Shown here: positions 16,209 through 32,454 of the stretch, piece after piece
How positions within the stretch are numbered: position 1 is the stretch's first letter
Layout: every line of letters starts with the position of its first letter
Assembly (NCBI GenBank): GCA_015234115.1
Contig: JADFWP010000029.1
Location: 1-32,812 of the forward strand
DNA from: Magnetococcales bacterium
Lineage (GTDB): Bacteria; Pseudomonadota; Magnetococcia; Magnetococcales; Magnetaquicoccaceae
Direction of reading: 5' to 3'
DNA: 32,812 bases
The notes under the pieces: model-generated
The model's input: only the letters and a program-made list of their open reading frames with translations
Databases searched by the model: none
What the model was told of the DNA's origin: nothing
Translations under genes and position numbers: made by a program

Positions 16209-16212
16209 GTTC

Positions 16213-17127: not shown

Positions 17128-17129
17128 GG

Positions 17130-18215
17130 TCACATCACCTCGCGACCGGTGAGAATATCCATCAACTGCCGCAATTGCACGGCCAGTTCCCGATAAATCT
17201 CCTCGTAGCGACGATTGGCCGCCAGACGATCCGCGTCATCCGGCATGAGTCCCACATCCCAGTTGAGAAAAACGGTGTGGAACGCCGGCTTGGCCACATA
17301 CGAACGCACATGGCCCTGCAAACCGATGAGAATGTCCATGCCATCCACATCCACGGCACTCAACCCCTTGGGGAGCATCCGGGACAGATCCAGCCCGATG
17401 GAACCCATGAACGCCACCGCGCCAGGATCGGGAGCAGAGGCCGGCAGCCGACCGGCACTGAAAAAACGACAATTGTTGTCATAACCCTTTCTGGACATGG
17501 CCTCGGCCATCAATCCCAAGGCACTGTTATCCTCGTCCAGAAACAGAATGTTGATCTCCCTGGGTGTCGGCATCTCGCCGGTGAGCCAAAAGACAATCTC
17601 TTCGCACAGATTCGTGGCCCGGTTCCCCACCCGTTCCAGCATGGTAAAGATAACATACAGATCAATCACATCCCGCGAAAATCCCGCACGACTGTCCCCC
17701 TCGTTGATCAAATCCCGAATCGCCTGCTCCAGTCCCCTGCCCAACTGGGCATTCATCTGGATGGTGCTCTTGGCAAGTCCGGCATTCTCCTCGACAAAGG
17801 CGGTCAGGGATTGACGCAGCATGGTCCGCGAGGCCGATGCCATGGTTTCCAGCTCCTGTTTCAGCAATCCGCCAGGCGGATTGGGCAGATCCAGGGTCTC
17901 GCGACAAATGTTCACCGCATAATCGGCAATCCGTTCCAGATCATAAATCATCCGCATGCTGGACGAAATCAGCCGCAGATGGCCCGCGCTCGGCAGGTGA
18001 CGGGCAATGAAGAAATGACACAAACGATCCAGTTCCTGACATTGACGATCCAGCGGGTAATCCATCAGGATGGTCATGTTGGCCAGGGTCTCGTTGCCGG
18101 AAAGCAGGGCCTGGACCGCATTTTTCAAGGCGAGTTCCACGCCTTCCCCCATCTCTGCGACTGCCTGGCGGATTTGATTCAGATCCTGCTGCAATCTTTT
18201 TTCATACACAGGCAT
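17130..18215 (-). CDS. phoU: PhoU fused to an inactive LMW-phosphatase/ArsC-like domain
   Basis: This 361-residue protein is longer than PhoU (about 220-240). Residues 1-215 are a two-repeat PhoU, beginning MPVYEKRLQQDLNQIR, with the metal-binding-type segments DLERIADYAVNI and MLERVGNRATNLCEE. Residues about 219-361 have the fold order of low-molecular-weight tyrosine phosphatases/arsenate reductases: ILFLDEDNSALGLMAEAM, then a SAGRLP segment and a C-terminal helix. The catalytic Cys-x5-Arg loop is lost (Cys to Asp, Arg to Leu). PhoU normally links PstB occupancy to PhoR, and the extra domain may bind phosphate as a sensor. The ATG at 18215 has GGAG six bases upstream. Confidence 0.93.
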   Translation of the reverse strand: MPVYEKRLQQDLNQIRQAVAEMGEGVELALKNAVQALLSGNETLANMTILMDYPLDRQCQELDRLCHFFIARHLPSAGHLRLISSSMRMIYDLERIADYAVNICRETLDLPNPPGGLLKQELETMASASRTMLRQSLTAFVEENAGLAKSTIQMNAQLGRGLEQAIRDLINEGDSRAGFSRDVIDLYVIFTMLERVGNRATNLCEEIVFWLTGEMPTPREINILFLDEDNSALGLMAEAMSRKGYDNNCRFFSAGRLPASAPDPGAVAFMGSIGLDLSRMLPKGLSAVDVDGMDILIGLQGHVRSYVAKPAFHTVFLNWDVGLMPDDADRLAANRRYEEIYRELAVQLRQLMDILTGREVM

Positions 18216-18350
18216 CGCGCGCTCCATCATGATCGGGGTGAGGAGGAAACCAGGCACCTCGGATTGGTTGCAAGGCATGATCGTCCCAGATCATACCAAT
18301 GACCATACACCAAAGAAAGGCCCGAAACACCCCCTGCGCGCAAACCATCC

Positions 18351-18380
18351 GACCGGCAACCGCTTGCCCGGTTACCGGTC
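18351..18380 (-). other. Hairpin between pstS and phoU
   Basis: A 12-bp stem with one mismatch (GACCGGCAACCG against CGGTTACCGGTC, 6-nt loop) lies about 65 bases after the pstS stop, in the 230-bp gap before phoU. No U-run follows. In other bacteria a stem here lets pstS, the most abundant Pst protein, be expressed above the downstream genes, and the same is inferred here. Confidence 0.6.
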
Positions 18381-18445
18381 GGATTGCCCGGTCTGCCCGA
18401 CCATCTGTCGTCTCTGCGGCAACAGACTCCCGGCCCCGAACAGGG

Positions 18446-19330
18446 TCATCTCTTCACACATTTGACCGGCCGCATGGGCGCATATCCCTTGTCGTGAATG
18501 ATGCACTGCCCGGCATCGCTCTTGATCCACTCAAGATAGGCCTTGACCTCTCCCACCGGCTCACCCTTGGTGTACATGAACAAGGGTCGCGCGATGGGAT
18601 AAAGACGAGAGACCGCATTTTCCATGTTGGCCTCCACCGGGGCGGTCTGATCGTTCCGGGCCACGGGCGGTCTCTTCACATGGGGGGAGTCGTAGGCCAG
18701 ACCACTGTAACCAATGGCGCATGGGGTCTTTTCCACCAGATCGACCACATCCTTGGATCCATGCATATCCTTGGTGCCCAGACGGAAATCCCGGCGTTCC
18801 CCGAGAATCGCCTCCTGGAAATAAAGATAGGTTCCGGAATTGTTCTGACGGCTCACCACAATGATCTGATCCCACTTGCAACCAGGCACGGTCAGACCGA
18901 GCTGACTCCATTTGGTCAGCTTGCCCTCATCGCCATAGATTTCGGCGAGCTGCTGCATGGTGATCGATTGCATGGGGTTGTCCTTGTGGACAAAAATCGC
19001 CAATGCATCATACCCCACCAGATGCTCGATGGGGCTGATGCCATTTTTCCTGGCCTCGTGCAACTCCTTGTCCTTCATGGAACGGCTGGAGTTGGCCAGA
19101 TCCACGGTTCCGTTGATCATGGCGGCGATGCCCGTGCCGGAACCGCCTCCGGTCACGGCCACCGCCACATCCGGCCTGATTTTCTGATAGGCCTCGGCCC
19201 AGGCCTGGGCCACGTTGACCAGAGTATCCGAACCTTTGTTCTGGATCATGATGCGGGCCTCGGCCGTGGCGACGAGTCCCCCCAGAATCGCGGCAAGCAG
19301 GACGACGCGGGTCGAAAGAATCAATTTCAT
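18446..19330 (-). CDS. pstS: Phosphate-binding protein PstS
   Basis: This 294-residue periplasmic binding protein starts with a signal peptide (MKLILSTRVVLLAAILGG, cleavage likely near ATAEA). The mature part shows the PstS/PstS-like order: a strand with IQNKGSDTL, the anion-binding loop TGGGSGTGIAAMINGTVD, NSSRSMKDKE, and SRQNNSGTYLYFQE. It captures phosphate and delivers it to PstCA. The ATG at 19330 has AAGGGTG upstream. A phased repeat array resembling a Pho box lies about 200 bases upstream, so it is probably PhoB-induced. The 120-residue-longer forms common in Enterobacteria are absent, as in many environmental PstS proteins. Confidence 0.95.
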   Translation of the reverse strand: MKLILSTRVVLLAAILGGLVATAEARIMIQNKGSDTLVNVAQAWAEAYQKIRPDVAVAVTGGGSGTGIAAMINGTVDLANSSRSMKDKELHEARKNGISPIEHLVGYDALAIFVHKDNPMQSITMQQLAEIYGDEGKLTKWSQLGLTVPGCKWDQIIVVSRQNNSGTYLYFQEAILGERRDFRLGTKDMHGSKDVVDLVEKTPCAIGYSGLAYDSPHVKRPPVARNDQTAPVEANMENAVSRLYPIARPLFMYTKGEPVGEVKAYLEWIKSDAGQCIIHDKGYAPMRPVKCVKR

Positions 19331-19516
19331 GCTGTGGCACCCTTGTTCTCGCACTGGATCTCCTGGACCCATGGACCCCCCATGAATCCGCCAACCCCTG
19401 ACGCTCCAACCAACGGCATGGCCCTATCCTGCAACAGAACACCCACAATTGGCAATCTCTATCCCGGCATCCCGGAGGTACGCTCATCATCCGGCATCGA
19501 CCAGGCGGCACACAGG

Positions 19517-19560
19517 ATCATGGAGAAGAAATGAATATCAGATGAAAATTGGATGAAAAA
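19517..19560 (-). promoter_or_regulatory. Pho-box-like array and -10 element upstream of pstS
   Basis: Three TTCAT elements on the minus strand start exactly 11 bp apart (plus-strand ATGAA at 19531, 19542 and 19553). This is the spacing of PhoB direct repeats. A -10-like CATGAT follows about 9 bases downstream (19522-19517), the usual geometry for a PhoB-activated promoter lacking a -35. The gap between pstS and the DUF47 gene (310 bp) otherwise holds only a hairpin. Confidence 0.6.
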
Positions 19561-19575
19561 TCACGCCCGGAGATT

Positions 19576-19608
19576 CACCTCGACCATCCGGGCAGGAGGG
19601 TCGAGGTG
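19576..19608 (-). terminator. Hairpin after the pit-DUF47 unit
   Basis: A 10-bp perfect stem (CACCTCGACC against GGTCGAGGTG, 13-nt loop) lies 33 bases after the stop of the DUF47 gene and just upstream of the pstS promoter array. There is no U-run, so termination may need Rho or be incomplete. Confidence 0.5.
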
Positions 19609-19640
19609 TCAAACCGGGATTGTGTTGCTGGCAAGACAGA

Positions 19641-20336
19641 TCAGCTGATCTGGATCACGATGTTGTGCAGCACCGAGGCGGCATCTCCCATCTTGCTCGC
19701 GATGTTGCGCAGATGACGATAGATCTCGCGCCGCTTGAGCATCTCGACCACATGAATCATGGCCTGCACCTCGGCGCCATCGGCATGGGCGCGCATCTTG
19801 GCAAGGTCGTCATCGATGGAATAGAGATTGCTCAGGGCCTTGCGATAAACCTTGTCCACATTGGACAGACATTGCAATCCCACCTGGGCATCCGGCTCGG
19901 CCTGGGCCGGAGTGGTGTCCAGTTTGGAAAAACCCCGTTGCAGGGCCGCAGCCGAATCGCGCAGCACCACGGCCATTTCCAGCATGGCATTGTCGCTCTT
20001 GATCTTCAGTGCGTCCATCTCCTCGATCACCACCCGGATCGAGGCCACCGGAACTTCCAGATTGACGATCGAACGCAGCACATCCTCCCGATCGATCGGG
20101 GTGGAAAAGGCATTGTTCAGAATATCCAGATTCTTTTCCCGCAGTTCCCGGGCCTGAGTCTCGATGACGATGATCTCATGGAACCTGGCGGTCGAAGACT
20201 CCGAAAAATAATCCACCGCAACCGACATCCCCTTGGCCAGCAAACCGGCCTGGACACCGATCAGGTCCAGAAAGGGGGGAATACGCGGAAAAACATTGTC
20301 CAGCATTTTGGTGAAGGGGGAAGAACCACCGCTCAT
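19641..20336 (-). CDS. DUF47 / PhoU-like Pit accessory protein
   Basis: This 231-residue, mostly helical cytoplasmic protein belongs to the DUF47 (YkaA/Pit-accessory) family, distant relatives of PhoU. The family phrase NAFSTPIDREDVLRSI and the C-terminal block MLKRREIYRHLRNIASKMGDA are clear. In other bacteria these proteins are encoded beside Pit and are thought to modulate it. Here it lies 68 bases after a pit gene with AAGGAG before the ATG, so the two form an operon. Two further copies lie at 21870 and 29583. Confidence 0.92.
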   Translation of the reverse strand: MSGGSSPFTKMLDNVFPRIPPFLDLIGVQAGLLAKGMSVAVDYFSESSTARFHEIIVIETQARELREKNLDILNNAFSTPIDREDVLRSIVNLEVPVASIRVVIEEMDALKIKSDNAMLEMAVVLRDSAAALQRGFSKLDTTPAQAEPDAQVGLQCLSNVDKVYRKALSNLYSIDDDLAKMRAHADGAEVQAMIHVVEMLKRREIYRHLRNIASKMGDAASVLHNIVIQIS

Positions 20337-20404
20337 GAAATTCTCCTTGGTGAACTGATCTGTATGTTGGATTCACGTCTGTCATGTTTTTTGTTCAATC
20401 CGGA

Positions 20405-21463
20405 TCAGCGCACGCCGCTGACACCCGTGATGAAGTTGGCCAGCATGTAGGTCAACCCACCCACCAGGCCGGAACCGGGAATGGTGAGCACCCAGGTGGC
20501 CAGAATCTCTTTGCCCTTGCGCCATTTGACCGCTTTGGGCTGTTCGGCCGTACCCACGCCCATGATGCTGGACGAAGCCACATGGGTGGTGGAGACCGGA
20601 GCGCCCATGGTGGCCGCACCGAAAATCACGGCGGCAGCGGTCAACTGAGCGTTGAAAGAGTGAATGGGACGGACGCGGAAGATGCCGAAGCCCACCGTGC
20701 GCACGATACGCCAGCCGCCAAACATGTTGCCTGCCGTGATCAGGGCCGCACACCAGAGGATCACCCAGGAGGGCACATGGAATTTCTCGATACTGCCGCC
20801 CAACAGCAGCGCCAGGGAGATGATCCCCATGCTCTTCTGCGCGTCATTGGTGCCGTGGGAGAACGAAAGCGCCGCAGCACTGATCCACTGAGAATACTTG
20901 AAGAACTTGTCCACTCTCGGCTTGGCGTTGGCCACCAGTCGGCGCACGATCTTCTGGAACAACCATGCGAACCAGAACCCCAATACCGGCGAAACAAAGA
21001 GGGAGAGCACCACCTTCATGACCCCGGACATTTTGCCCTTCATGATCAGATCTTCCCAACCCCACATCACGTGATTGGCACCAGCGGCAAAGATCACCGC
21101 ACCGGCGATGCCACCCACCAGGGCATGAGAGGAGGAAGAGGGCAGACCAAACCACCAGGTGAACATGTTCCAGAAGATCGACCCGAAAATGCCGCACAGC
21201 AAAATCATCAACGACATGTTGGCATTCAGATCCTTGATCGAGACGAATTTGCCGATGGTGTCGGCCACGGCCGTACCCCCGAGCAACGGCCCGATGAAGT
21301 GAAACACCCCGGTCAGCAGGGCGGCCTGGATCGGGGTCATGGCGCGCGAGGCGATGATGGACCCGGTGATGTTCGATGCGTCGTGAAAGCCATTGGTGAA
21401 GTCAAAAATCAATACCACGATAATGGCGGTCCACATCATCAACATGATTGTGCTGTTATCCAT
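20405..21463 (-). CDS. pit: Pit-family inorganic phosphate transporter
   Basis: This 352-residue permease of the PiT (PF01384) family takes up phosphate, usually as a metal-phosphate complex driven by ion gradients. The two inverted-repeat signatures are present: FTNGFHDASNITG near the N-terminus and FSHGTNDAQKSMGI in the second half. GLPSSSSHALVGG and APVSTTHVASSSIMG are the two matched re-entrant loops. GGAGAGG precedes the ATG. It is followed by a DUF47 gene and preceded by an 11-bp-phased Pho-box-like array, so it is probably induced by PhoB, which is unusual for the low-affinity Pit of E. coli. Confidence 0.96.
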   Translation of the reverse strand: MDNSTIMLMMWTAIIVVLIFDFTNGFHDASNITGSIIASRAMTPIQAALLTGVFHFIGPLLGGTAVADTIGKFVSIKDLNANMSLMILLCGIFGSIFWNMFTWWFGLPSSSSHALVGGIAGAVIFAAGANHVMWGWEDLIMKGKMSGVMKVVLSLFVSPVLGFWFAWLFQKIVRRLVANAKPRVDKFFKYSQWISAAALSFSHGTNDAQKSMGIISLALLLGGSIEKFHVPSWVILWCAALITAGNMFGGWRIVRTVGFGIFRVRPIHSFNAQLTAAAVIFGAATMGAPVSTTHVASSSIMGVGTAEQPKAVKWRKGKEILATWVLTIPGSGLVGGLTYMLANFITGVSGVR

Positions 21464-21625
21464 CGTCTCTCACCTCTCCTGACCTGTTGAGTGTTCTGTA
21501 CATTCTGTTGCCCATGGTGCGTTTCCTCTTCCTGGATGAAAATGAATGGTGCCGAAACCCCGCCTGTGGTACCTCTTCCGTTTGCTCTTCAGTTTCAATT
21601 AAGAAATAGTCAACCACATGTTTGC

Positions 21626-21680
21626 ATTTTAAAGGGAACGTATTAACGAGGAATGAAGGATTGATTAAAGATCGGTTAAA
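21626..21680 (-). promoter_or_regulatory. Four-unit Pho-box-like array upstream of pit
   Basis: On the plus strand TTAA, TGAA, TTAA and TTAA begin at 21643, 21654, 21665 and 21676, an exact 11-bp period. On the transcribed (minus) strand each unit reads TTAA or TTCA. A -10-like TAAAAT (21631-21626) follows about 11 bp after the last unit. The layout matches the array before pstS, with one extra unit. The 406-bp gap between this pit gene and the upstream DUF47 gene holds no gene, only this array and the palindromes listed separately. Confidence 0.65.
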
Positions 21681-21740
21681 AGTGACCGTCAGAAATCGCA
21701 CCATGCATCCGCCCAGGAAAAGCTCCAAAATCATCATGAT

Positions 21741-21758
21741 TATATAAGTAATTATATA
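21741..21758. repeat. AT-rich palindrome
   Basis: TATATAA and TTATATA flank a 4-bp centre, GTAA. It lies between the terminator-like hairpins and the Pho-box array and could be a weak cruciform or a protein site. Nothing more can be said. Confidence 0.4.
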
Positions 21759-21763
21759 GAACC

Positions 21764-21798
21764 AAATCATGAGGAGGAAAACCCACTCCTCATGATTT
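21764..21798 (-). terminator. Strong hairpin downstream of the phoBR-DUF47 operon
   Basis: A 13-bp perfect stem (AAATCATGAGGAG against CTCCTCATGATTT, 9-nt loop) lies about 70 bases after the DUF47 stop. A-rich ends pair with T-rich ends, so it could stop transcription in either direction. Confidence 0.55.
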
Positions 21799-21840
21799 GA
21801 AAGACACGAAACAGCCCTGATGATGCCAGGGAAGCACCGA

Positions 21841-21861
21841 TAAAAACCAAGCTGGTTTTTA
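21841..21861 (-). terminator. Small terminator-like stem after DUF47
   Basis: TAAAAACCA and TGGTTTTTA form a 9-bp stem with a 3-nt loop, starting 8 bases after the stop codon at 21870. The downstream arm supplies a T-run on the minus strand. With the larger hairpin at 21764-21798 it gives a tandem end to the phoB-phoR-DUF47 transcript. Confidence 0.5.
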
Positions 21862-21869
21862 ATCGATCC

Positions 21870-22544
21870 TTAACCGATCTGCACCACAATGGTATGCAAT
21901 ACCGAAGCGGCATCCCCCATCTTGCCGGAAATATTGCGCAGATGGCGATAGGCTTCACGACGCTTGAGAATATCCACGGTATGGATGAAGGCCGCGATAT
22001 GGGCCTCCTCTTCCCTGGAGCGGATATTTTTCACCTCTTCTTCGATGTTGAAAAGCTTGCCGAGCGCCTTGCGATAGACCAGATCCACACTGGTAGGACA
22101 TTTCATGGCCATCAGGGCATCGGGATCGGCCTGTCCCGGCTTGGAGGCCAATTTGCCATAACCCCGTTGCAGGGCGGCAGCACTCTCACGCAGCACCACC
22201 GCCATTTCCAGACAGTAATTGTCCGAAGTCACGTTCAAGGCACGCATCTCCTCGATTGCCTCGACCATCGACTCCACGGGAATTTCCAACGTGTTGATCG
22301 CCTGCAACAGATCGGACCGGTCAATCGGGGTGGAGAAGGAATCGCTCAGTTTGTCCAGATGGCGGGAGCGCAACTCCTTGGCCTTGGTTTCGATATCGGC
22401 CATGGTCTGGAAACGGATGGGATCGGGATCGGTCAGGCAATCCACGGCGTTTGCCATGCATTTGGCCAGAATTTCGGCCTGGGCGCTGATCATGTCCAAA
22501 AACGCGGGCATCGGGGGCAGAATCGCATCCAACATCTTGCTCAT
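21870..22544 (-). CDS. DUF47 / PhoU-like protein in the phoBR operon
   Basis: This 224-residue helical protein is clearly paralogous to the DUF47 protein at 19641: SFSTPIDRSDLLQAI, RESAAALQRGYGKL and LKRREAYRHLRNISGKMGDA are shared or nearly so. The ATG at 22544 has CAGGAG seven bases upstream and lies 22 bases after phoR. It is therefore co-transcribed with phoB and phoR rather than directly with pit. That position suggests a regulatory role towards PhoR or the Pit downstream, but this is inference. It lacks a signal peptide and membrane helices. Confidence 0.92.
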   Translation of the reverse strand: MSKMLDAILPPMPAFLDMISAQAEILAKCMANAVDCLTDPDPIRFQTMADIETKAKELRSRHLDKLSDSFSTPIDRSDLLQAINTLEIPVESMVEAIEEMRALNVTSDNYCLEMAVVLRESAAALQRGYGKLASKPGQADPDALMAMKCPTSVDLVYRKALGKLFNIEEEVKNIRSREEEAHIAAFIHTVDILKRREAYRHLRNISGKMGDAASVLHTIVVQIG

Positions 22545-22566
22545 GAAAATCTCCTGTTCATTGGGG

Positions 22567-23862
22567 TTAAAGGTCATCCAACCTGCTGCATCCATCCACC
22601 GCATCAGACGGGAACCGACACACAAAACGACTGCCGATGCCTGTCTGACTGACGATTTCCAATTTGCCCTGGGCACGCTCCATGGCCTCTTTCACCAGAG
22701 CCAGCCCCAGTCCACTCCCCTCCGGACAGGCCGCACCTTTCCGGCCTGTGTTGTGCTGAAACGTCACCCGGTAGTACTTCTCCGTCAACCTGGGCAGGTG
22801 ATAACTGGCGATTCCCGGACCATTGTCGGCAATGGTCAGCATGGGTCGCGCCCGTTCGTCACGACACCACATCACCCGCACCTCGGTTTGATCCGGGGTG
22901 TGGTTGACCGCATTGGCCAGCAGATTGCCCACCACGCACCGCAACAACTCCAAATTGACCCGGAAGAATGGCCCCCCTTCCATGATCAACAAAAACGCAT
23001 GGTTGCGCTCTCCGCTCAACACCGCCGCCTCGTCGATCATCTCCCGCAGAAACGGCTCCATGGCCACCACCTCAACCGGGAATCCATGCCGCAACGGCCC
23101 CAAACGCAACAACGTGGTCTGATCCTCGATCAGACTTTGCATGCGTTGGGTCTGCCGGTTCAGCAGGCCAAAGGCATGCTCCCACTGGGGCGACCCAAGC
23201 GGCAGATCCGGCAGCAACTCCAGCACCCCACGAAAAACCGTGATCGGCGTCTTGAGTTCATGGGAAATGTTATCCATGAAATCCCGCTGCTGACGGTCCA
23301 ACTGATAGCGATCCGTGATGTCGCTCACCGACACCAGCCAGAAATTCTCCTGCGCCAACCGGATGAAACGCAGTTGCAACATTCTTCCCCCATCGACCGG
23401 TGAAGGGAGATCGATGGGCCGGGTGAAATCCTCCCGGAACAGATAATCGTCCAAGACCGGTTGTCCCAACCGATGGGCAAAAGGCTTGCCCAGATCCCGT
23501 TTCTCGAAGATTCCCAACAGATGCCGCGCCGCCGGATTGCACCAGCAGAGCGCGAAACGGTAATCCAGCAGCAACACCCCGTCCGGCAAGGCATCCACCG
23601 CCTGACGCCAACGCTTGATCGTGACTTTCCAGCGTTCCCGGATGGTGGCGCCGCTCTCCAGCGCCGCGCAGAAATCGGGAGGTTCGTCCACCTCCTGCCG
23701 ACGCCCCCCCGGATCCTCTTCCCATGGGTGCCGGAAGAAAACATAAACCAGAACCCCGGGCACCACCCAGACAAACCAGGGGAGATGATTCACACTCAAA
23801 AAAATCGCAGGAGCAAAAGACAACAAAAGAATCCATGCCTTGCCGCTCCCGGAGATCATCAT
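22567..23862 (-). CDS. phoR: Phosphate-regulon sensor histidine kinase PhoR
   Basis: This 431-residue kinase has two close N-terminal membrane helices (about 8-45) with almost no periplasmic part. A charged linker and a PAS domain (about 100-190, DALPDGVLLLDYRFALCWCN) follow, then HisKA with the phosphorylation site in DNISHELKTPI, and a HATPase domain with N (NLLANAVNH), DNGPGI and GSGLGLALVK boxes. The layout is that of PhoR, which senses phosphate through PhoU and Pst rather than by itself. The ATG at 23862 overlaps the phoB stop (ATGA), so translation is coupled. It should phosphorylate the PhoB encoded just upstream. Confidence 0.95.
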   Translation of the reverse strand: MMISGSGKAWILLLSFAPAIFLSVNHLPWFVWVVPGVLVYVFFRHPWEEDPGGRRQEVDEPPDFCAALESGATIRERWKVTIKRWRQAVDALPDGVLLLDYRFALCWCNPAARHLLGIFEKRDLGKPFAHRLGQPVLDDYLFREDFTRPIDLPSPVDGGRMLQLRFIRLAQENFWLVSVSDITDRYQLDRQQRDFMDNISHELKTPITVFRGVLELLPDLPLGSPQWEHAFGLLNRQTQRMQSLIEDQTTLLRLGPLRHGFPVEVVAMEPFLREMIDEAAVLSGERNHAFLLIMEGGPFFRVNLELLRCVVGNLLANAVNHTPDQTEVRVMWCRDERARPMLTIADNGPGIASYHLPRLTEKYYRVTFQHNTGRKGAACPEGSGLGLALVKEAMERAQGKLEIVSQTGIGSRFVCRFPSDAVDGCSRLDDL

Positions 23863-24560
23863 GGCAAACTGGCGGAAAACATGTAGCCCGCCCCACGCAC
23901 GGTTTGCAGCATGCCGTCCTTGCCAAAAGGCTCCAACAGTTTGCGCAATGCACGGACATGAACATCCACCGTGCGATCCCCCACATGGACATTGCGCCCC
24001 CAGACCAGATCCAACAGTTGGTCCCGATGATAGACCCGATCCGGATGAGTGATGAAAAAGCCCAACAACCGATATTCCATGGAACTGCACCGGAGGGGCT
24101 GTTGGCCAACGCGGATGGTGTGCTGGGCGCGATTGAGCACCAGAGTGTCCAGCACCACCACCTCCTCCGTGGCCAGTGGCTCGACCCGACGCAGCGCCAC
24201 CCGGATGCGGGCAAGCAACTCCTTGGCAGAAAACGGTTTGGTGATATAATCTTCCGCACCCTGCTCCAGACCGCTCACCTTGTCCCCCTCTTCACCCTTG
24301 GCCGTGAGCATGATGACCGGAATGGTCCGGGTGGCTTCATCCTTCTTGAGCAGACGCAGATATTCCAGACCAGATACCCCCTTGAGCATCCAATCCAACA
24401 GGATCAAATTGGGGGTGATGTCGCGCAAAAGACCCTGGGCTTCATGCACGCTCGACGCTTCCAGGCTCTCGATGCCGGCATTGGCCAGAATCAGGCACAC
24501 GGTGTCCCGAATCGCCGATTCATCATCCACAATCAACACTTTGGAACGCACAGCACTCAT
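23859..24560 (-). CDS. phoB: Phosphate-regulon response regulator PhoB
   Basis: This 233-residue OmpR/PhoB-type regulator has a receiver domain (D12, D13, phosphoacceptor D56 in ILLDWML, and K in ITKPFSAKEL). The C-terminal winged helix has the recognition region DRTVDVHVRALRKLL and the family wing VRGAGYMF. GGAGG lies before the ATG. It probably binds the 11-bp-phased repeats upstream of pit and pstS. It is divergent from the CHASE kinase gene, with only about 75 bp between the starts, so the two promoters may overlap. I saw no phased repeat in that short gap. Confidence 0.96.
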   Translation of the reverse strand: MSAVRSKVLIVDDESAIRDTVCLILANAGIESLEASSVHEAQGLLRDITPNLILLDWMLKGVSGLEYLRLLKKDEATRTIPVIMLTAKGEEGDKVSGLEQGAEDYITKPFSAKELLARIRVALRRVEPLATEEVVVLDTLVLNRAQHTIRVGQQPLRCSSMEYRLLGFFITHPDRVYHRDQLLDLVWGRNVHVGDRTVDVHVRALRKLLEPFGKDGMLQTVRGAGYMFSASLP

Positions 24561-24634
24561 GGATCACTCCTCCACTCCTGGCAACAACCCGGATGCGACC
24601 GGCCCGGATTCCATGGGATGAAACCACCCACACC

Positions 24635-26818
24635 ATGAACCAACCGCCCTCTTCCTCTCCCGCGCATTTTGCTGCGCAGCTGACCCGCCGATGGTTCCAC
24701 GGGCTGCGCACCTATGGCATGATCCTGCTGGTGATGACGGCGGGGATGCTGTTTTCTCTGGCGATTTTCGTCAGCGTCCGTTCGCAGATCACCCATCATC
24801 TGTATCAGGAGTTCGAGTGGGTGGCCCAGGATCGCCATCGTGCGGTGCGCAAAGGGCTGGAATCGGCCCTGGGCGCGGTACACGAACTGAACGATCTGTT
24901 CATCTCCACGCCGGACATCCAGGCCCAGACCTTTCAGCGCGTCGCGACCCTGATCCACGCCCGCTACCCGGAAATCGAAGCCCTGCAATGGGTAAAACTC
25001 CTCCCCGCGCCAGAAAACCAACCCCCAAAAAACCAACCCAATGAACAGGCCCTGGTCACCTTTCAGGAACCGGCCACAGGCAACCCGATCCAAACGGAAC
25101 CGGACCACTATGCCATTCCCGGACGCCGCAAACTCCTGGAAGAGGCGCGCGATACGGGAAAACTGGTGATCAGCGGACGCATTCCCCTGACTCCGGACGA
25201 TCCCCAGCGTCTCGGTTTTCTCGCCGCCCTGCCGGTCTACCAACCCGAGGCCCCGCTCACCACCATTCTGGAACGGCATCGCGCCTTGACCGGCTATGTC
25301 ATCGGCATCTTCCAGTTCGCCAACCTGGCCCGCGAAGCCATCTCGATGCTGGAACCGCGCGGCGTGGAATGCATGATCCTCGATGACCAGGCCCCCGAAG
25401 AGGAACGTTATCTCCACTTCTACGCCTCTCGTCTCGCCAATCCGCCCTTCACCTTCGCGCATCCTCTGGATTGGCAACTCTGGCTCGGTCAACCCGATCC
25501 CAAGCTCACGGCCCACACCCGGCTGGGCAACCGGGTCTGGTCGATCACCTGCTCGCAAACCAACCACTTCCGCTCGGCGGAATGGTTCACTCACGGCCAC
25601 TGGGTCACTCTGCTCACCGGTCTGCTGCTCACCGGTCTGCTCACCCATTATCTGCTGCGCATCAAGACCGATCTGCTCATCCGCACCCGCATGGCGCAGC
25701 AACTGGCAGAATCCGAACGACTGTTGAGTGTGCTGTTCTACCGCTCCCCGGACATCATCCGCCTGGTGGACCGCGCCGGAGAGACGCTGCTGGTGAACCG
25801 CCATCCGGTGCCGGGAGAATACGATCCCACGAATCCCGTGCATCCCGCGCCGACCGACTTCCGGCAGGAATATCTGCGCACCCTGGAGCAGACCTTCACC
25901 CTCCAGGAGATCCACCATCTGCACCTCCGGGCCCGTGATGATCTGTGGTGGGAGGTGCGCATCGTCCCGCTGCGGGAAGAGACCGGCAGCGCCATGGCCA
26001 TGGTGGTGGCCACCGACATCTCCGAAAACAAAATGCTCGAAGAACAGGCTGCCAAGAATGGCCGCCTGGCCTCCCTGGGTCTGATGGCCGCCGGCGTTGC
26101 CCATGAAATCAACAATCCGAACAACTCCATCTATTACAACGCCAACCTGCTGGCCGACGCCTGGAGTTCCGTCAAGCCGATCCTGGATGAATATCACCGG
26201 GAGAATGGCGATTTTGCCATCTCCGGCCTCCCCTACAGCGAGATGGGCGACAAAATCCCCACCATCATCACCTGGATCATCGACAACACCGACCGCATCA
26301 AGAAAATCGTCGAACTGCTCAAGAATCTCGCCCGCAACGATTCGGGTCTCGCCAAGGAACCGGTGGATCTGGGGGCACTGGCCCATGGCACGCTGCTTCT
26401 GCTCAACAACACCATCCAGAAACACACGGATCAGTTCTCGATGCGGATTCCGGCAGATCTGCCTTTGGTGCCGGGCCACCCGCGACAACTGGAACAGGTG
26501 CTGATCAACGTGCTGGTCAATGCCCTGCAATCCCTGCCCGACCGCAGCCGCAGCGTCCATCTGGAGGCCACCACCGCGCCTTCGGGCCGGGAAGTGATCC
26601 TGATCGTCCAGGATCAGGGGCGGGGAATTCCCTCCTCCTATCTGGAAAAAATCACCGAACCCTTTTTCACCACCCGGCTGGAAAAGGGCGGAACCGGTTT
26701 GGGCCTTTCCATTTCCGCGACGATCATCAAGAATCATGGTGGCCGCCTGCGCTTCGAATCGGTCGTGAACAGCGGCACCACGGTCTTCATCCACCTGCCC
26801 TGCGCGAGAGACGCCTGA
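24635..26818 (+). CDS. CHASE-domain sensor histidine kinase (NtrB-type partner)
   Basis: The protein has 727 residues from the ATG at 24635; an ATG at 24593 would add 14, and neither has a strong ribosome site. A first helix (about 25-48) and a second (about 325-350) bracket a periplasmic domain of about 275 residues resembling CHASE (RYPEIEALQWVKLLP, LGFLAALPVYQ). A PAS-like segment follows. The H-box is in AAGVAHEINNPNNS (His near 490). An HATPase domain contains LINVLVNALQSL, DQGRGIP and GGTGLGLSIS. The response regulator starts directly after its stop codon. The signal is unknown; the neighbourhood points to phosphate or a related stress. Confidence 0.93.
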   Translation: MNQPPSSSPAHFAAQLTRRWFHGLRTYGMILLVMTAGMLFSLAIFVSVRSQITHHLYQEFEWVAQDRHRAVRKGLESALGAVHELNDLFISTPDIQAQTFQRVATLIHARYPEIEALQWVKLLPAPENQPPKNQPNEQALVTFQEPATGNPIQTEPDHYAIPGRRKLLEEARDTGKLVISGRIPLTPDDPQRLGFLAALPVYQPEAPLTTILERHRALTGYVIGIFQFANLAREAISMLEPRGVECMILDDQAPEEERYLHFYASRLANPPFTFAHPLDWQLWLGQPDPKLTAHTRLGNRVWSITCSQTNHFRSAEWFTHGHWVTLLTGLLLTGLLTHYLLRIKTDLLIRTRMAQQLAESERLLSVLFYRSPDIIRLVDRAGETLLVNRHPVPGEYDPTNPVHPAPTDFRQEYLRTLEQTFTLQEIHHLHLRARDDLWWEVRIVPLREETGSAMAMVVATDISENKMLEEQAAKNGRLASLGLMAAGVAHEINNPNNSIYYNANLLADAWSSVKPILDEYHRENGDFAISGLPYSEMGDKIPTIITWIIDNTDRIKKIVELLKNLARNDSGLAKEPVDLGALAHGTLLLLNNTIQKHTDQFSMRIPADLPLVPGHPRQLEQVLINVLVNALQSLPDRSRSVHLEATTAPSGREVILIVQDQGRGIPSSYLEKITEPFFTTRLEKGGTGLGLSISATIIKNHGGRLRFESVVNSGTTVFIHLPCARDA

Positions 26819-28276
26819 ATGAACGACACTCCACTCACCGGCATGCCGCCGGTCTTTCTCGTGGACGACGAGGAACACGTACTCAACAGCCTGAGCCTCT
26901 TTCTGCGCGGTTCCGGCTTCAAGGAGGTGGTCACGGTGCAAGACAGCCGCGACCTCATGCCGTTGATGCTGCGTCAGAAGGCCATGACCGTGATCCTCGA
27001 TCTCTTCATGCCCAATCTTTCGGGCATCGAACTGCTGCCCGAGATCATCCGTCATTTCCCCGAAGTGCCGGTGGTGGTGGTCACCGCCTCCCAGGAGGTG
27101 GAAACCGCCGTCACCTGCATGCGGGAAGGGGCGTTCGACTATCTGGTGAAACCGGTGGAACGGACCCGTTTTGTCACCAGCGTGCGCCGCGCCGTGGATA
27201 CCTTCCTGTTGCGCCAGGAGGTCCACGCCCTGAAGAGCTACCTCATTCATGGCGGCCTCAACCACCGGGAGGCGTTTGGTCGCATTCTCACCAACTCGGC
27301 CCAGATGCGAGGCATCTTTCAATACATCGAGGCCGTGGCCGGCAGCGGCGAGACCATCCTGATCACCGGCGAAACCGGCGTGGGCAAGGGATTGTTGGCC
27401 GAAGCGGCCCACCGGGTCAGCGGACGTACCGGCGGCTTCATTTCGCTCAATGTCGCCGGACTGGATGACACCCTCTTTTCCGATACCCTCTTCGGCCATC
27501 GCAAAGGGGCCTTTTCCGGGGCCGACAGCAACCGGGAAGGATTGGTGGCCCGCGCGGCCGGAGGCACCCTGTTTCTGGACGAAATCGGCGATCTGAAGGC
27601 GGCCTCCCAGGTCAAACTGCTGCGACTGTTGCAGGAGCAGAGCTATTACCCCCTTGGCTCCGATGTGCCCAAACTGAGCAGCGCCCGCATTGTCGCCGCC
27701 ACCAACAACGATCTGCGCAAAATGGTGGCAAACGGTGAGTTCCGGCAGGATCTCTACTACCGCCTCACCTCGCACCGGGTCGAAATCCCCCCCCTGCGGG
27801 AACGGACCGAAGATATTCCGTTGCTGTTGGGATTCTTTACCCAGGAAGCGGCCCGGGCCATGAACAAAGCCGTGCCCAACACCCCGCCGCAACTGCTTAC
27901 CCTGCTGGCAGCCCACCATTTCCCCGGCAACGTGCGGGAGCTGCGCGCCCTGATCTTCGATGCCGTGGCGCGCCATCCAGCGGGTCCCACCCTCTCCATG
28001 GAGAGTTTCCACCAGGCGATCCGCGACCACAACCAGCCGACCGGCGCCCCAACCGACCGGAACCCGCAGGAGAACAGCGCCTCCCCATCCGGAATGTTCT
28101 CTTCCGGGCAGTTTCCAACGCTGAAGGATGGAATCGATGCCATGGTCCACGAAGCCATGCGTCGCGCCAACAACAATCAAGGGATCGCGGCGACCCTGCT
28201 GGGCATCACCCGCCAATCCCTGAACCGGCGACTCATGAATATGCGTGCGAAACAATCGTCCCTCGACCTGGAGTAG
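26819..28276 (+). CDS. NtrC-family sigma-54-dependent response regulator
   Basis: This 485-residue protein joins a receiver (D16, D17, phosphoacceptor D61, K in LVKPVERT), an AAA+ sigma-54 activation domain and a Fis-type helix-turn-helix. Walker A is GETGVGKG. The sigma-54 contact loop is GAFSGA, a known variant of GAFTGA. Walker B is GTLFLDEIGD, and the arginine-finger region FRQDLYYRL is present. The DNA-binding helices (QGIAATLLGITRQSLNRRL) lie at the C-terminus after a Pro-rich linker. The gene begins at the base after the kinase stop. The downstream gap carries repeated 10-mers and a sigma-54-like promoter, so it probably controls the DUF47-DUF47-pit-ppk2 genes. Confidence 0.95.
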   Translation: MNDTPLTGMPPVFLVDDEEHVLNSLSLFLRGSGFKEVVTVQDSRDLMPLMLRQKAMTVILDLFMPNLSGIELLPEIIRHFPEVPVVVVTASQEVETAVTCMREGAFDYLVKPVERTRFVTSVRRAVDTFLLRQEVHALKSYLIHGGLNHREAFGRILTNSAQMRGIFQYIEAVAGSGETILITGETGVGKGLLAEAAHRVSGRTGGFISLNVAGLDDTLFSDTLFGHRKGAFSGADSNREGLVARAAGGTLFLDEIGDLKAASQVKLLRLLQEQSYYPLGSDVPKLSSARIVAATNNDLRKMVANGEFRQDLYYRLTSHRVEIPPLRERTEDIPLLLGFFTQEAARAMNKAVPNTPPQLLTLLAAHHFPGNVRELRALIFDAVARHPAGPTLSMESFHQAIRDHNQPTGAPTDRNPQENSASPSGMFSSGQFPTLKDGIDAMVHEAMRRANNNQGIAATLLGITRQSLNRRLMNMRAKQSSLDLE

Positions 28277-28684
28277 GGGTGCAGCAATTGCTGATAATAT
28301 ATCATTCTGCTGCACCCTCTGCCAACCAGAAAAGAAGGCTGTCACCCTTTTTCCCACCTCCCTGTGAATCAGGGGGGTACAGATCAGCATTCAATAATAT
28401 TCCAATAAACCGATTCCCCGCTTTCCCCCGCCAACCTCTTTGACAAATCGACACGGGTGCAGCTTTTTCTGCACCTCATCAATTTGCTGCACCCAGCCAC
28501 CCAGAGAAAAAACTCCTGCCTGATCACCCCCCCTTGACAGCCTCAACGCCAGCACAGACGCCATACAGCACCATTTTCCAGGTAGAATATTATGCTGCAC
28601 CCCTTGCCCATCCACCATGCAGCATTTCGATAAACGCCCAGCCAAACCCCTCCCCCCAAACCGCAGCAAAATTTGCTGCACCCC
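28277..28684. repeat. Cluster of TGCTGCACCC repeats (candidate activator sites)
   Basis: The 10-mer TGCTGCACCC occurs exactly five times in 408 bp: on the minus strand at 28277-28286, and on the plus strand at 28308-28317, 28485-28494, 28593-28602 and 28674-28683. A sixth half-site pair at 28455-28475 reads GGTGCAG-CTTTTT-CTGCACC. Several copies sit in dyads (28277-28317 and 28663-28679). The 566-bp gap 28277-28842 has no credible gene. The position between an NtrC-like gene and a sigma-54-like promoter suggests upstream activator sequences for that regulator. Confidence 0.75.
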
Positions 28685-28735
28685 TGAAAAATTCTCAAAT
28701 CCGGCCAAATGATCATACAACATATTGAAATTGAA

Positions 28736-28757
28736 CTGTTTTATCCTATTAAAACAG
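28736..28757. promoter_or_regulatory. Perfect dyad next to the sigma-54-like promoter
   Basis: CTGTTTTA and TAAAACAG flank a 6-bp centre and end two bases before the -24 element. It could be an operator for a second regulator or an IHF-like flexible AT-rich site, but no family can be assigned. Confidence 0.45.
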
Positions 28758-28759
28758 CA

Positions 28760-28775
28760 TGGCCCGCATCTTGTA
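28760..28775 (+). promoter_or_regulatory. Sigma-54-like promoter for the DUF47-pit-ppk2 genes
   Basis: TGGCCCGCATCTTGTA matches the -24/-12 consensus TGGCACG-N4-TTGCA in spacing and in most bases. The GG at -24 is intact and the -12 GC is GT. Transcription would start near 28787, giving a leader of about 56 bases. The nearest candidate activator repeat is about 80 bp upstream. Confidence 0.6.
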
Positions 28776-28842
28776 GTATAAGAGAGCATGGCAGGGGCGT
28801 TGCAGCCTCCCCCGATTTCCTCAAACCCGAGAGAGTCACACC

Positions 28843-29520
28843 ATGCCCAACCAGTCTTTCCTGTTGTTTGGAAAGAGCATGAACCTGGAAAAACAGATCG
28901 ATGAGTTTCTCAATCTGCTCTCCGAGGCCAATATTCTGTTTCGGGCCGGCATTGGACTGTATCTGGAAGAGACACCAGGAGGAACACGTTTTCAGGCACG
29001 ACTGCAACTGCTCAAACACCACGAACGGGAACTGGACACCCTGAGCCGTTTTATCGAGGCCCAGTTGCGCGCCCAACCGATTGTACCGGATCTGCGTGGA
29101 GATGTGCTGCAACTGCTCGAACAACTGAGCCGGTTGCAACGGCTGCTGGCCAAGAATCTCATGGAATTCGACGCCGAATGCCCAGCCATTCCCACGGATC
29201 TCCATCCCCGGTTCCTGGAGTTGAGCCAGTCGGTCTCCATGGCCGTGGAGATCTGCATCGAAGCGGGACACACCTTCTTCCACGAAACCGAACATGTGGG
29301 AGAGTACTTGAGCAAGGTGGCCTTCTACGAAAAAGAGGCTGACAAATTCGCCATGGGACTGGTCAAGTCGATCTTTGCCAATGAGACCATCACCCTGGCC
29401 GAAAAGATTCACATCCGCCGTTTCGTGGAAAAGGTGGATGAACCCGCCAACAAGGCGGAAGAGATCGCGGCATGGCTGGCCATCTTCTTTATGAGAAGGG
29501 CGCCCATGACCCCGGCATGA
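28843..29520 (+). CDS. Divergent PhoU/DUF47-like protein
   Basis: A 225-residue all-helical cytoplasmic protein. Its segments KHHERELDTLSRF and YEKEADKFAMGLVKSIF match the repeated E/D-x3-D metal-binding helices of PhoU and DUF47 proteins, but the rest is far from the other DUF47 copies in the window. The ATG at 28843 has GAGAG nine bases upstream. It is the first gene after the sigma-54-like promoter, 62 bases before a canonical DUF47 gene, and so probably belongs to the same operon as Pit. Its likely role is in controlling the Pit transporter or in phosphate signalling; that is inference from family and context. Confidence 0.85.
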   Translation: MPNQSFLLFGKSMNLEKQIDEFLNLLSEANILFRAGIGLYLEETPGGTRFQARLQLLKHHERELDTLSRFIEAQLRAQPIVPDLRGDVLQLLEQLSRLQRLLAKNLMEFDAECPAIPTDLHPRFLELSQSVSMAVEICIEAGHTFFHETEHVGEYLSKVAFYEKEADKFAMGLVKSIFANETITLAEKIHIRRFVEKVDEPANKAEEIAAWLAIFFMRRAPMTPA

Positions 29521-29582: not shown

Positions 29583-30278
29583 ATGGGCGGATCCAGCACA
29601 GGCTTTTCCAAACTCACCAACCGCGTCTTCCCCCGCATGCCCAACTTCTACGGGCTGATCCTCGAACAGTGCGCCCTGGCCGACCAGGCCGCCGCCCTGC
29701 TCGAAGAGTATGTGCAAACCGGCAACAAATCCCGCGCCGACCAGATCCTGAAACTGGAGCAGGATGCCGAAACCCTGCGTCAGCGCAACCTGGATGTGCT
29801 CAAGAACGCCTTCGCCACCCCCATGGACCGCGAAGACATCTATCGCGCCTACATGACCGTGGACTGCATCATCAGCTATGCCCACAACATCGTCTCCGAG
29901 ATGGATGCGCTGAACATCAAGACCGACAAGTACATCACCGACATGACCGCCGCCCTGCGCAACGCCGTGGAGACCCTGAGCGCCGGTTACAAGAAACTCG
30001 CCACCTCCCCGGCCGACTCCGACAAGGATGCCCAACTGGTCGGTCAGGCCCGCAAGACGATCGAAAAAACCTTCCGCGCCGCCCTGGCCCAACTCTTCCA
30101 GGGTGACAAGTATGTCCAGATGATGCAACAGAAACAGGATGGCGCCGAGGCCCAGGCCATGAGCTACGTCCTGGACATCTTCAAACGCCGTGAGATCTAC
30201 CGTCACCTCTTCGATGCCGCCATCGACATGGGCAATGCCGGCAAGGTGCTGCACGATATCGTGGTCCAGGTCGCCTGA
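29583..30278 (+). CDS. DUF47 / PhoU-like Pit accessory protein
   Basis: This 231-residue helical protein has the family phrases NAFATPMDREDIYRAYM and DIFKRREIYRHLFDAAIDMG and closely parallels the protein at 19641. GCAGGAG lies at normal spacing before the ATG. It is followed after 106 bases by a pit gene, the reverse of the pit-DUF47 order in the minus-strand module. It is probably an accessory or regulator of that Pit. Confidence 0.92.
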   Translation: MGGSSTGFSKLTNRVFPRMPNFYGLILEQCALADQAAALLEEYVQTGNKSRADQILKLEQDAETLRQRNLDVLKNAFATPMDREDIYRAYMTVDCIISYAHNIVSEMDALNIKTDKYITDMTAALRNAVETLSAGYKKLATSPADSDKDAQLVGQARKTIEKTFRAALAQLFQGDKYVQMMQQKQDGAEAQAMSYVLDIFKRREIYRHLFDAAIDMGNAGKVLHDIVVQVA

Positions 30279-30384: not shown

Positions 30385-31428
30385 ATGGATACCAGTCTCA
30401 TTCATACTCTGATGTGGACGACCATCATCGTCGTTCTGATATTCGACTACACCAACGGCTTTCACGATGCCTCCAACATCATCGGCACCATCATCGCCTC
30501 CCGCGCCATGACGCCGATCCAGTCCGTGCTCGTGGTGGCCACCTTTGAAATGCTCGGACCCATGCTGGCCGGAACTGCCGTGGCCAACACCATCGGCAAG
30601 TTCATCACCATCGGGGATCTGCCCGCCAACATCTCCATCATCGTGCTCCTGTGGGGCATCTTCGGGGCCATCTTCTGGAACCTGCTCACCTGGTGGGTGG
30701 GTCTGCCCTCCTCCTCCTCCCATGCGCTGGTGGGTGGACTGATGGGGGCCGTGATCATGGCCGCAGGCGCCGATCATGTGATGTGGGGCTTCAAGGAGTT
30801 CTTCGCCACCGGCAAGATGGGCGGCGTGGCCAAGGTGGTGCTGTCGCTGATCCTGTCGCCGATCCTCGGCTTTGTGGTCGGCTTCCTGTTCAACAAACTG
30901 GTCGGCTTCGTGCTGCTGCCGTTCAGCCCCAAGGCCAACACCTGGCTCAAACGGTTCCAGTATCTCAGTGCTGCCAGCCTCGCCTTCTCCCACGGCTCCA
31001 ACGACGCCCAGAAAAGCATGGGTATCGTCACCCTGTGTCTCGTTCTGGGCGGCGCCCTCCCCAAATTCGATGTGCCCTTCTGGGTCATCGTCGCCTGTGC
31101 GGCCTGCATCACCCTCGGGATCCTCTCGGGTGGCTGGCGCATCGTGCGCACCGTCGGCTTCGGCATCTACAAGGTGCGTCCGCAACACGCCTTCTCGGCA
31201 CAACTCACCGCCGGTACGCTGATCTTCGGCGCCGCGCTCTGGGGCGCCCCGGTCTCCACCACCCACGTCGCCAGCTCCGCGATCATGGGTGTGGGCACCT
31301 CCGATCGTCCCAAAGCGGTCCGCTGGGCCAAGGCCTCCGAGATCGTCAGCACCTGGGTGATCACCATCCCCGGCTCGGGTGCGGTCTCCGCCCTCACCTA
31401 CTGGGTCTTCGCCACGCTGGTCTACTAG
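30385..31428 (+). CDS. pit: Pit-family inorganic phosphate transporter (second copy)
   Basis: This 347-residue permease is a close paralogue of the Pit at 20405. Both signatures are present (YTNGFHDASNIIGT and FSHGSNDAQKSMGI), as are GLPSSSSHALVGG and APVSTTHVASSAIMG. Starts further upstream would overlap the DUF47 gene; the ATG at 30385 has CGGAG just before it. It is followed by a stem-loop and then polyphosphate kinase 2, suggesting that the phosphate taken up may be fed into polyphosphate metabolism. Confidence 0.96.
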   Translation: MDTSLIHTLMWTTIIVVLIFDYTNGFHDASNIIGTIIASRAMTPIQSVLVVATFEMLGPMLAGTAVANTIGKFITIGDLPANISIIVLLWGIFGAIFWNLLTWWVGLPSSSSHALVGGLMGAVIMAAGADHVMWGFKEFFATGKMGGVAKVVLSLILSPILGFVVGFLFNKLVGFVLLPFSPKANTWLKRFQYLSAASLAFSHGSNDAQKSMGIVTLCLVLGGALPKFDVPFWVIVACAACITLGILSGGWRIVRTVGFGIYKVRPQHAFSAQLTAGTLIFGAALWGAPVSTTHVASSAIMGVGTSDRPKAVRWAKASEIVSTWVITIPGSGAVSALTYWVFATLVY

Positions 31429-31445: not shown

Positions 31446-31473
31446 GGTGGAGGCGACGCCTGTCGCCTCCACC
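31446..31473 (+). other. Perfect 12-bp stem-loop between pit and ppk2
   Basis: GGTGGAGGCGAC and GTCGCCTCCACC flank the 4-nt loop GCCT, 18 bases after the pit stop. No U-run follows, so it may partly stop transcription, protect the upstream mRNA end, or mark a processing site that sets the pit:ppk2 ratio. Confidence 0.65.
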
Positions 31474-31563
31474 AATCCCACAAAAAAACCATGGCCATTT
31501 GATCCCATGGATGATAAAATCCCCGCCAGATCTTTCTTCTCACTTTCCTTGGGAGAGCGCCCT

Positions 31564-32454
31564 ATGTCCAGTTCGAAGCCCGAAGACTCCAAAAAAGCCG
31601 ACGACACCCACACCAAGCACCGCCATCATTCAAGTACCCGCGACAAGGAGATCGTCCTGGGAACCGGGAGTCAAAAGGCCAAGCGGTCCGCTCAACCCAA
31701 ACTCAAAAAGATGTCCGAGGCCGAATACCTGAAAATCATCAACCCGCTCCACATCGAGCTGGTCAAGATGCAGAATTGGGTCAAGGAAAACGGTCACAAG
31801 ATCATCGCCATCTTCGAAGGCCGCGACGCCTCGGGCAAGGGTGGCACCATCAAACGGGTCATCGAACACTTGAACCCGCGCGGCTGCCATGTCATCGCCC
31901 TGGAAAAACCCACGGACCAGGAACGCAGCCAGTGGTATTTCCAACGCTATGTCAAGCACCTCCCCTCGGCAGGCGAAATCCATCTCTTCGACCGCAGCTG
32001 GTACAACCGTGCCGGCGTGGAACGGGTCATGGGATTCTGCACCAAGGATCAGGTCAAAGAGTTTTTGCGCACCGTGCCCGAATTCGAACGGCAACTGGTG
32101 GCCTCGGGGATCATTCTGTTCAAGTTCTACTTCTCGGTGAGCAAAGAGGAACAACTGCGCCGCTTCAACAGCCGCCAGAACGATCCCCTCAAACAGTGGA
32201 AACTCTCCCCGGTCGATAAAGAATCCCAGGACAAATGGGATGACTACACCAAGGCCAAAGAGGATATGTTCTTCTACTCCTCGACCGAACAGTGTCCCTG
32301 GACCATCATCAAGTCCAACGACAAAAAACAGGCGCGCATCAACACGATCAAATATCTGTTGAGCAGCCTGCCCTACACCGGCAAAAATTCCGAACTGCTC
32401 GACTACGACAAACGCGTGGTGCGTACCGTCTTCGAAGAGATCGGCATCGACTGA
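31564..32454 (+). CDS. ppk2: Polyphosphate kinase 2 (PPK2 family)
   Basis: This 296-residue protein is a single-domain PPK2, which transfers phosphate between polyphosphate and nucleotides. Walker A is in FEGRDASGKGGTIKR, and the lid and Walker B region carry the family phrase DRSWYNRAGVERVMGFC. The C-terminal part matches (PWTIIKSNDKKQARIN). The N-terminal 50 residues are charged and low in complexity. I chose the ATG at 31564 because GGGAGA lies eight bases upstream; an ATG at 31507 is possible. The direction (NDP-to-NTP synthesis or polyphosphate synthesis) cannot be read from sequence alone. It lies downstream of pit, consistent with a phosphate storage module. Confidence 0.95.
   Translation: MSSSKPEDSKKADDTHTKHRHHSSTRDKEIVLGTGSQKAKRSAQPKLKKMSEAEYLKIINPLHIELVKMQNWVKENGHKIIAIFEGRDASGKGGTIKRVIEHLNPRGCHVIALEKPTDQERSQWYFQRYVKHLPSAGEIHLFDRSWYNRAGVERVMGFCTKDQVKEFLRTVPEFERQLVASGIILFKFYFSVSKEEQLRRFNSRQNDPLKQWKLSPVDKESQDKWDDYTKAKEDMFFYSSTEQCPWTIIKSNDKKQARINTIKYLLSSLPYTGKNSELLDYDKRVVRTVFEEIGID

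Follow-up and report, generated by a model that had tools for sequence, protein, structure and literature searches.

Two-component control of sigma-54 promoters is exemplified by NtrB-NtrC and AtoS-AtoC, in which a histidine kinase is paired with a receiver-AAA+-HTH_8 regulator and the promoter region combines upstream palindromic half-sites, an IHF-like block and a -24/-12 element. Sigma-54 promoters carry GG at -24 and GC at -12 at a fixed spacing. Phosphate-uptake genes are served by another two-component system, PhoR-PhoB, and the Pho box reads CTGTCAT-N4-CTGTCAT. In DUF47-pit (orfA-pit) operons, a PhoU-like DUF47 gene precedes a phosphate transporter. A further association of a sigma-54 regulator with phosphate is QseF, a response regulator that the accessible text of PMC3162934 lists with sulphate and phosphate stress, assigning it to outer-membrane protein production, not to phosphate transporters; the accessible text of PMC12316311 also cites work concerning nitrogen regulators and polyphosphate in E. 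coli. The locus described here resembles each of the three systems: a kinase and regulator of NtrC/AtoC build, half-sites, an IHF-like block and a -24/-12 element stand before a DUF47-pit operon, with a PhoB-like gene adjacent.

Gene content and control region

The window, meaning the whole analysed stretch of 32,812 nucleotides from a Magnetococcales bacterium (GCA_015234115.1, contig JADFWP010000029.1), carries the genes and sites collected in Table 1. The identities given in an earlier note were upheld by Pfam for the kinase, the receiver-AAA-HTH_8 regulator, both DUF47 genes, PHO4 (pit) and PPK2. Comparison with relatives indicates that the kinase may truly start at the in-frame ATG at 24635. 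The regulator combines a receiver domain (PF00072) holding the phospho-acceptor Asp within VILDLFMPN, an AAA+ domain (PF00158, E=1.1e-54) whose GAFSGA loop is a Ser variant of the GAFTGA type, and a C-terminal Fis-type HTH (PF02954), features that place it among the NtrC-family sigma-54 activators. The best NCBIfam models are AtoS for the kinase and AtoC, then NtrC, for the regulator, with scores far below the family cut-offs (AtoC, 324.7 bits against 714; NtrC TIGR01818, 303.1 bits against 558.6), leaving the regulator outside both equivalogs.

Table 1. Coordinates of genes and control elements within the window
Feature	Position	Strand	Basis or remark
CHASE-PAS-HisKA-HATPase sensor kinase	24593-26818	+	Pfam
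NtrC-type response regulator, GAFSGA loop, helix ITRQSLNRR	26819-28276	+	Pfam; alignment
Extra inverted half-site module	28277-28317		Adjoins regulator stop; elsewhere in G003 and G008 only
Three-half-site module (palindrome and third half-site)	28455-28494	+	Kept in 10/10 promoters
Middle half-site	28593-28602	+	Found in 6/10 promoters
Additional inverted ATGCTGCAT site	28617-28625	-	
Proximal half-site	28672-28683	+	Its CTGCA begins 84 bp ahead of TGGC
IHF-like YAAN4TTG block	28718-28728		In 8/10 promoters
-24/-12 (sigma-54-type) element TGGCCCGCATCTTGTA	28760-28775	+	TGGCCCG-N4-TTGTA
DUF47a (PhoU_div), first gene of operon	28843-29520	+	Pfam
DUF47b (PhoU_div)	29583-30278	+	Pfam
pit, phosphate transporter (PHO4)	30385-31428	+	Pfam
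Hairpin 3' of pit	31446-31473	+	Terminator-like in G001 and G002; window copy not called terminator
Sigma-70-like promoter candidate before ppk2	31492-31520	+	Promoter scan
ppk2 (TIGR03707)	31564-32454	+	NCBIfam; probably separate unit

Between the regulator stop at 28276 and the DUF47a start at 28843 lies a non-coding gap (28277-28842), in which no known RNA was matched in Rfam up to E 0.5. Five exact copies of the 10-mer TGCTGCACCC, at 28277 (-), 28308 (+), 28485 (+), 28593 (+) and 28674 (+), and a one-mismatch copy at 28455 (-) all fall inside this gap, confirming the five copies first read there. Comparison of orthologues identifies TTTGCTGCACC as the conserved core of the sites. The earlier note had described dyads; the sites are real, but in place of simple dyads they comprise lone half-sites and a palindrome to which a third half-site is added.

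Conservation across Magnetococcales

The DUF47a search returned 24 rows in 16 of 61 genomes, and the ten rows at 65% or above were treated as orthologues (within the genus G000-G006, G009 and G010; from another family G026); the proteins are 65-83% identical at six named loci (L073-L078), all in Magnetococcales MAGs. Each of the ten promoters carries TGCAG, CTGCA and CTGCA at offsets 0, +11 and +29, the first reading CGCAG in G003 (one mismatch). The proximal CTGCA stands 84 bp before TGGC-N7-TTGTW in eight promoters and 82 bp in two, while the distance from the third half-site of the module to the proximal half-site is 189-194 bp in eight, 179 bp in G004 and 79 bp in G026. The YAAN4TTG block, which we take to fit the IHF core consensus, lies 41-42 bp upstream of TGGC and is missing from G006 and G026. 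The gap alignment is mostly diverged, with 86 of 491 columns shared by eight or more of the nine sequences.

Conservation in relatives, proposed earlier as a check, extends beyond the ten orthologous promoters to the full order kinase-regulator-gap-DUF47a-DUF47b-pit-ppk2, present in six genomes including that of the window; in G009, the contig ends within ppk2. The association of the sites with the DUF47a promoter holds even when the regulator is not directly upstream: in G001, G002 and G004 the operon is convergent with the regulator, and in G026 regulator and operon are on different contigs, the array standing before DUF47a in all four. Beside the G004 regulator, no kinase relative was found. 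Another DUF47-like gene separates the kinase from the PhoB-like gene in G001 and G002 (L045 and L044) and is oriented divergently from the kinase.

In the orthologous regulator of G026 (L048, 8220-9632), the phospho-acceptor Asp of the receiver is gone (VVLEPYSEN), and its 14 kb stretch yielded no kinase relative, although the DUF47a promoter retains the array. In G008 (88% complete), the order is kinase-regulator-ppk2 with the module between regulator and ppk2 (L046), GAFPGA replaces GAFSGA in the regulator, and no DUF47a orthologue was found, the best row reaching 31%; this circuit has probably decayed after loss of its target. The DUF47b-pit pair of G008 adjoins a type-2 regulator. In G007 (57% complete), the searches returned no close regulator and no close DUF47a.

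Genome-wide occurrence and paralogous circuits

Without mismatches, the three-half-site module matches eight times in the 11 genus genomes, every time at a DUF47a promoter; with up to two mismatches there are 48 matches, most of them scattered, against 8 for the control. Across 48 genomes of the order, the exact module matches ten times (control 0), with nine matches at DUF47a promoters and one elsewhere (G015:C508), and the proximal half-site plus promoter matches 12 times (control 0), nine at DUF47a promoters; the G004 promoter escapes this second pattern because its -12 is TTGTT. Occurrence in the genomes searched is near-exclusive to the DUF47a promoter. The other three half-site and promoter matches lie directly 3' of paralogous regulators with helix ISRQSLNRR in another genus (G011, G012 and G015). 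There (L214 in G011; L213, 9016-9631, in G012; L216 in G015), the half-site and promoter precede an open reading frame beginning MSRKAKQLD, which looks like an IS630-type transposase.

Inspection was extended to the 14 non-orthologous DUF47 rows, many of which neighbour a kinase together with an NtrC-type regulator from the same subfamily, and to 20 stretches that were chosen mainly for regulator and pit/DUF47 matches sharing a contig and are therefore no random sample. Among the kinase N-termini scanned, CHASE was found in both orthologues, fell below the cut-off in the G011 paralogue and was not found in the other three of the four paralogous kinases; the sensors therefore differ.

Helix and operator classes largely match, the ITRQSLNRR-type segment being presumably the recognition helix. 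Nine regulators in the alignment carry ISRQTLNYR, in most cases with the operator TGAAAAANNNTTTTCACCCC, which has eight matches in 7 of 11 genus genomes (control 0), all at ISRQTLNYR-type loci; the G004:C46 match adjoins a paralogous DUF47 gene, with the regulator on another contig. The G007 and G008 paralogues have helix ISRQTLNYR yet half-sites ending CTTGCACCC, and G014 and G016 have helix ITRQSLNRR with GCTGCAC half-sites. The G019 regulator shares the helix of the window's regulator, and no array was found within 1.5 kb of it or in the 48-genome scans for the module and for half-site plus promoter. An operator could be placed in 11 of the 14 paralogous promoters, at 83-85 bp from the -24 element in eight, 73 bp in two and 94 bp in one, values about one helical turn apart and comparable to within about 1 bp, the difference between the anchor letters of the operator types; one extra operator match (G016) and one extra -24 match (G010) were dropped for their negative distances. 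Paralogous regulators with another DNA-binding helix thus appear mostly to pair with another operator at the same spacing, a match that is suggestive rather than proof because few independent clades contribute. A contig of G018 (C136; L210), on which no NtrC-type gene was found, carries a DUF47-pit unit twice in tandem, accompanied by TGCAGCA/TGCTGCA sites and TGGYCYCGRAATTGTA elements.

Surrounding phosphate locus and the binding regulator

On the minus strand, divergent from the CHASE kinase, positions 13760-24560 form a phosphate super-locus comprising a PhoB-like regulator (TIGR02154, 293.4 bits, just below the cut-off of 296.2), a second kinase (PAS-HisKA-HATPase), pit2, ABC ATPases, a PBP_like_2 (PstS-like) gene, a PhoU plus LMWPc protein, pst permeases, a DUF47-like gene at 21870-22541 (19 bits, under the 24.4 cut-off) and a gene at 19641-20336 with no NCBIfam match, DUF47-like in our reading. 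The neighbouring pst, pit2 and PhoB-like genes place the putative sigma-54 circuit inside a larger phosphate locus. Elsewhere in the window, positions 8659-11499 encode a chemoreceptor with Cache and C-terminal hemerythrin domains.

The gap contains no Pho-box match, and the window contains three at 3 mismatches against a chance mean of 2.94; Pho-box control of the DUF47a operon was rejected. The proposed separation from PhoBR stands as far as the gap is concerned, and is weakened by the PhoB-like regulator, second kinase, pst and pit2 genes immediately divergent.

Given this neighbourhood, the array and the sigma-54-like promoter might be real and yet be bound by another NtrC-type paralogue or by the PhoB-like regulator, which we consider unlikely. 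Pointing that way are seven matches to the regulator at E<=1e-60 in G000, the PhoB-like gene next door, the unlinked G026 regulator without its receiver Asp, and the G018:C136 sites on a contig where no NtrC-type gene was found. Against it, the operator class mostly shifts with the helix of the neighbouring regulator, the three cross-genus half-site and promoter matches immediately follow regulators whose helix matches, and the Pho box is missing from the gap.

Promoter class

The TGGCCCG-N4-TTGTA element of the earlier note was located at 28760-28775 (Table 1); a second TGGC-N7-TTGTA match falls on the minus strand within DUF47b. The -24 GG and the element spacing are kept in all ten orthologous promoters, whereas the -12 G precedes T and not C, reading TTGTA in nine, TTGTT in G004 and TTGC in none; a canonical -12 TGC is seen near other regulators of Magnetococcales. 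The rpoN gene is present in G000 and in 45 of 49 genomes, with no match in G004 (77% complete).

The non-canonical -12 GC and the TATA-like bases 3' of the -12 element in most orthologues would suit a sigma-70 start, with TTGTAGTATAAG as an extended -10 and the half-sites serving a repressor or an ordinary activator. We hold this to be very improbable, since TGGC and TTGT hold the sigma-54 spacing in 10/10 promoters, the regulator retains GAFSGA, and paralogous DUF47 promoters show the same distance between the operator and a TGGC-type -24 element. A sigma-70 promoter was also the finding that the earlier note would have counted against itself; the scan of the gap returned no sigma-70-like site on the plus strand and one on the minus strand, and a sigma-70 start for DUF47a was rejected.

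Clustering of the repeats

Across 2000 shuffles of the gap, the 10-mer occurred 0.003 times on average and at most once, against five observed, and the 7-mer TGCTGCA 0.23 times on average and at most three times, against six observed; its density is 10.6 per kb in the gap and 0.34 per kb in the remaining window. The source genome (3.31 Mb, 161 contigs, 77% complete) contains 13 TGCTGCACCC copies, and the reversed-pattern control gives 7; the eight copies outside the gap are at chance level, so the 10-mer is not common genome-wide in the way that would have told against the original reading. Chance clustering was excluded by the shuffles and the uniqueness in the genome. A chance or mobile-repeat cluster with no regulatory role, to which the further short repeats in the gap might be credited, is scarcely credible beside the shuffles, the genome uniqueness and the spacing kept in 10/10 promoters.

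ppk2 and the extent of the operon

The ppk2 product scores 378 bits against TIGR03707 (cut-off 301.8), placing it in PPK2. By eye, a hairpin follows pit in all eight pit-ppk2 gaps compared, and in G001 and G002 a T-run accompanies it; the pattern search recovers six of the eight, its minimum loop excluding these two genomes. Upstream of ppk2, TGG[CA][CT]A-N17-TANAAT occurs in 7 of 9 genomes, including that of the window, and TTGCAT-N17-GATAAT in G001 and G002. In G008, ppk2 comes after the regulator, and the interval yielded no DUF47 or pit gene. The hairpin, the sigma-70-like promoter and the G008 order make it probable that the sigma-54 promoter does not drive ppk2, or does not do so alone, and that ppk2 has a promoter of its own; the hairpin and candidate promoter would therefore limit the sigma-54 operon to DUF47a-DUF47b-pit. 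The dedicated two-component sigma-54-type switch first proposed is well supported by conservation for DUF47 and pit, but ppk2, originally included in it, is probably separate.

Proposed mechanism and implications

Taken together, the sequence comparisons make it likely that DUF47-DUF47-pit is under the control of an NtrC-type sigma-54 activator that receives its input from a CHASE histidine kinase, and judging from these target genes the circuit would serve phosphate. The gap would be the control region of the sigma-54 promoter. The CHASE-domain kinase would phosphorylate the adjacent response regulator, which would bind TTTGCTGCACC half-sites, the predicted bound sites in the gap being the TGCTGCACC sites. 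In the predicted layout, the palindrome and third half-site lie about 190 bp upstream of a proximal site, often with a middle site, and the proximal half-site stands a constant 82-84 bp upstream of the -24 element. The DNA may be looped by IHF or another bending protein, bringing about activation rather than repression as the AAA+ ring of the activator opens sigma-54 polymerase at 28760-28775, with a transcript start predicted near 28786.

If so, a second, separate signal would govern bulk phosphate uptake beside pst, the PhoB-like system and ppk2. The related operator classes with their fixed spacing also provide a natural series for studying change in NtrC-type DNA specificity. More tentatively, and with less than even confidence, duplicated units of kinase, sigma-54 activator, operator and DUF47/Pit may have changed helix and operator together while keeping a spacing of about 84 bp plus or minus whole turns, the window copy acting as a phosphate-storage switch beside PhoB that answers a signal other than phosphate starvation. 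Such a switch would be relevant to polyphosphate-rich magnetotactic cocci. The accessible text of PMC6783814 describes several Pit genes per genome in some Magnetococcales, common polyphosphate granules, and PPK2 without PPK1 in the order, which makes phosphate-storage control a question that the circuit would render testable.

Comparison with known systems

The earlier note did not recognise phosphate control through a sigma-54 activator and CHASE kinase as described. No description of sigma-54 control of DUF47-pit appeared in open-access titles and the opening lines of abstracts, a search outside which most subscription papers fall; the words phosphate, phosphorus, Pit and DUF47 are absent from the sigma-54 regulome of Desulfovibrio (PMC4641369), and the accessible texts of PMC12316311, PMC5193443, PMC3616915 and PMC8871633 hold nothing on pit under sigma-54. 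Among 59 named DUF47 loci outside Magnetococcales, three with less than 350 bp upstream, none had a strict -24/-12 element upstream or a regulator relative in the stretch, and a spread of the sigma-54/DUF47 link beyond the order was rejected on this survey; type-2-like elements would escape it because the pattern is strict at -12.

The window circuit departs from PhoR-PhoB in regulator and promoter class, PhoB being OmpR-type and the window gap having no Pho-box match. Unlike NtrB-NtrC and AtoS-AtoC, it has a DUF47-pit target, a palindrome with a third half-site, a -12 reading TTGTA and a CHASE sensor.
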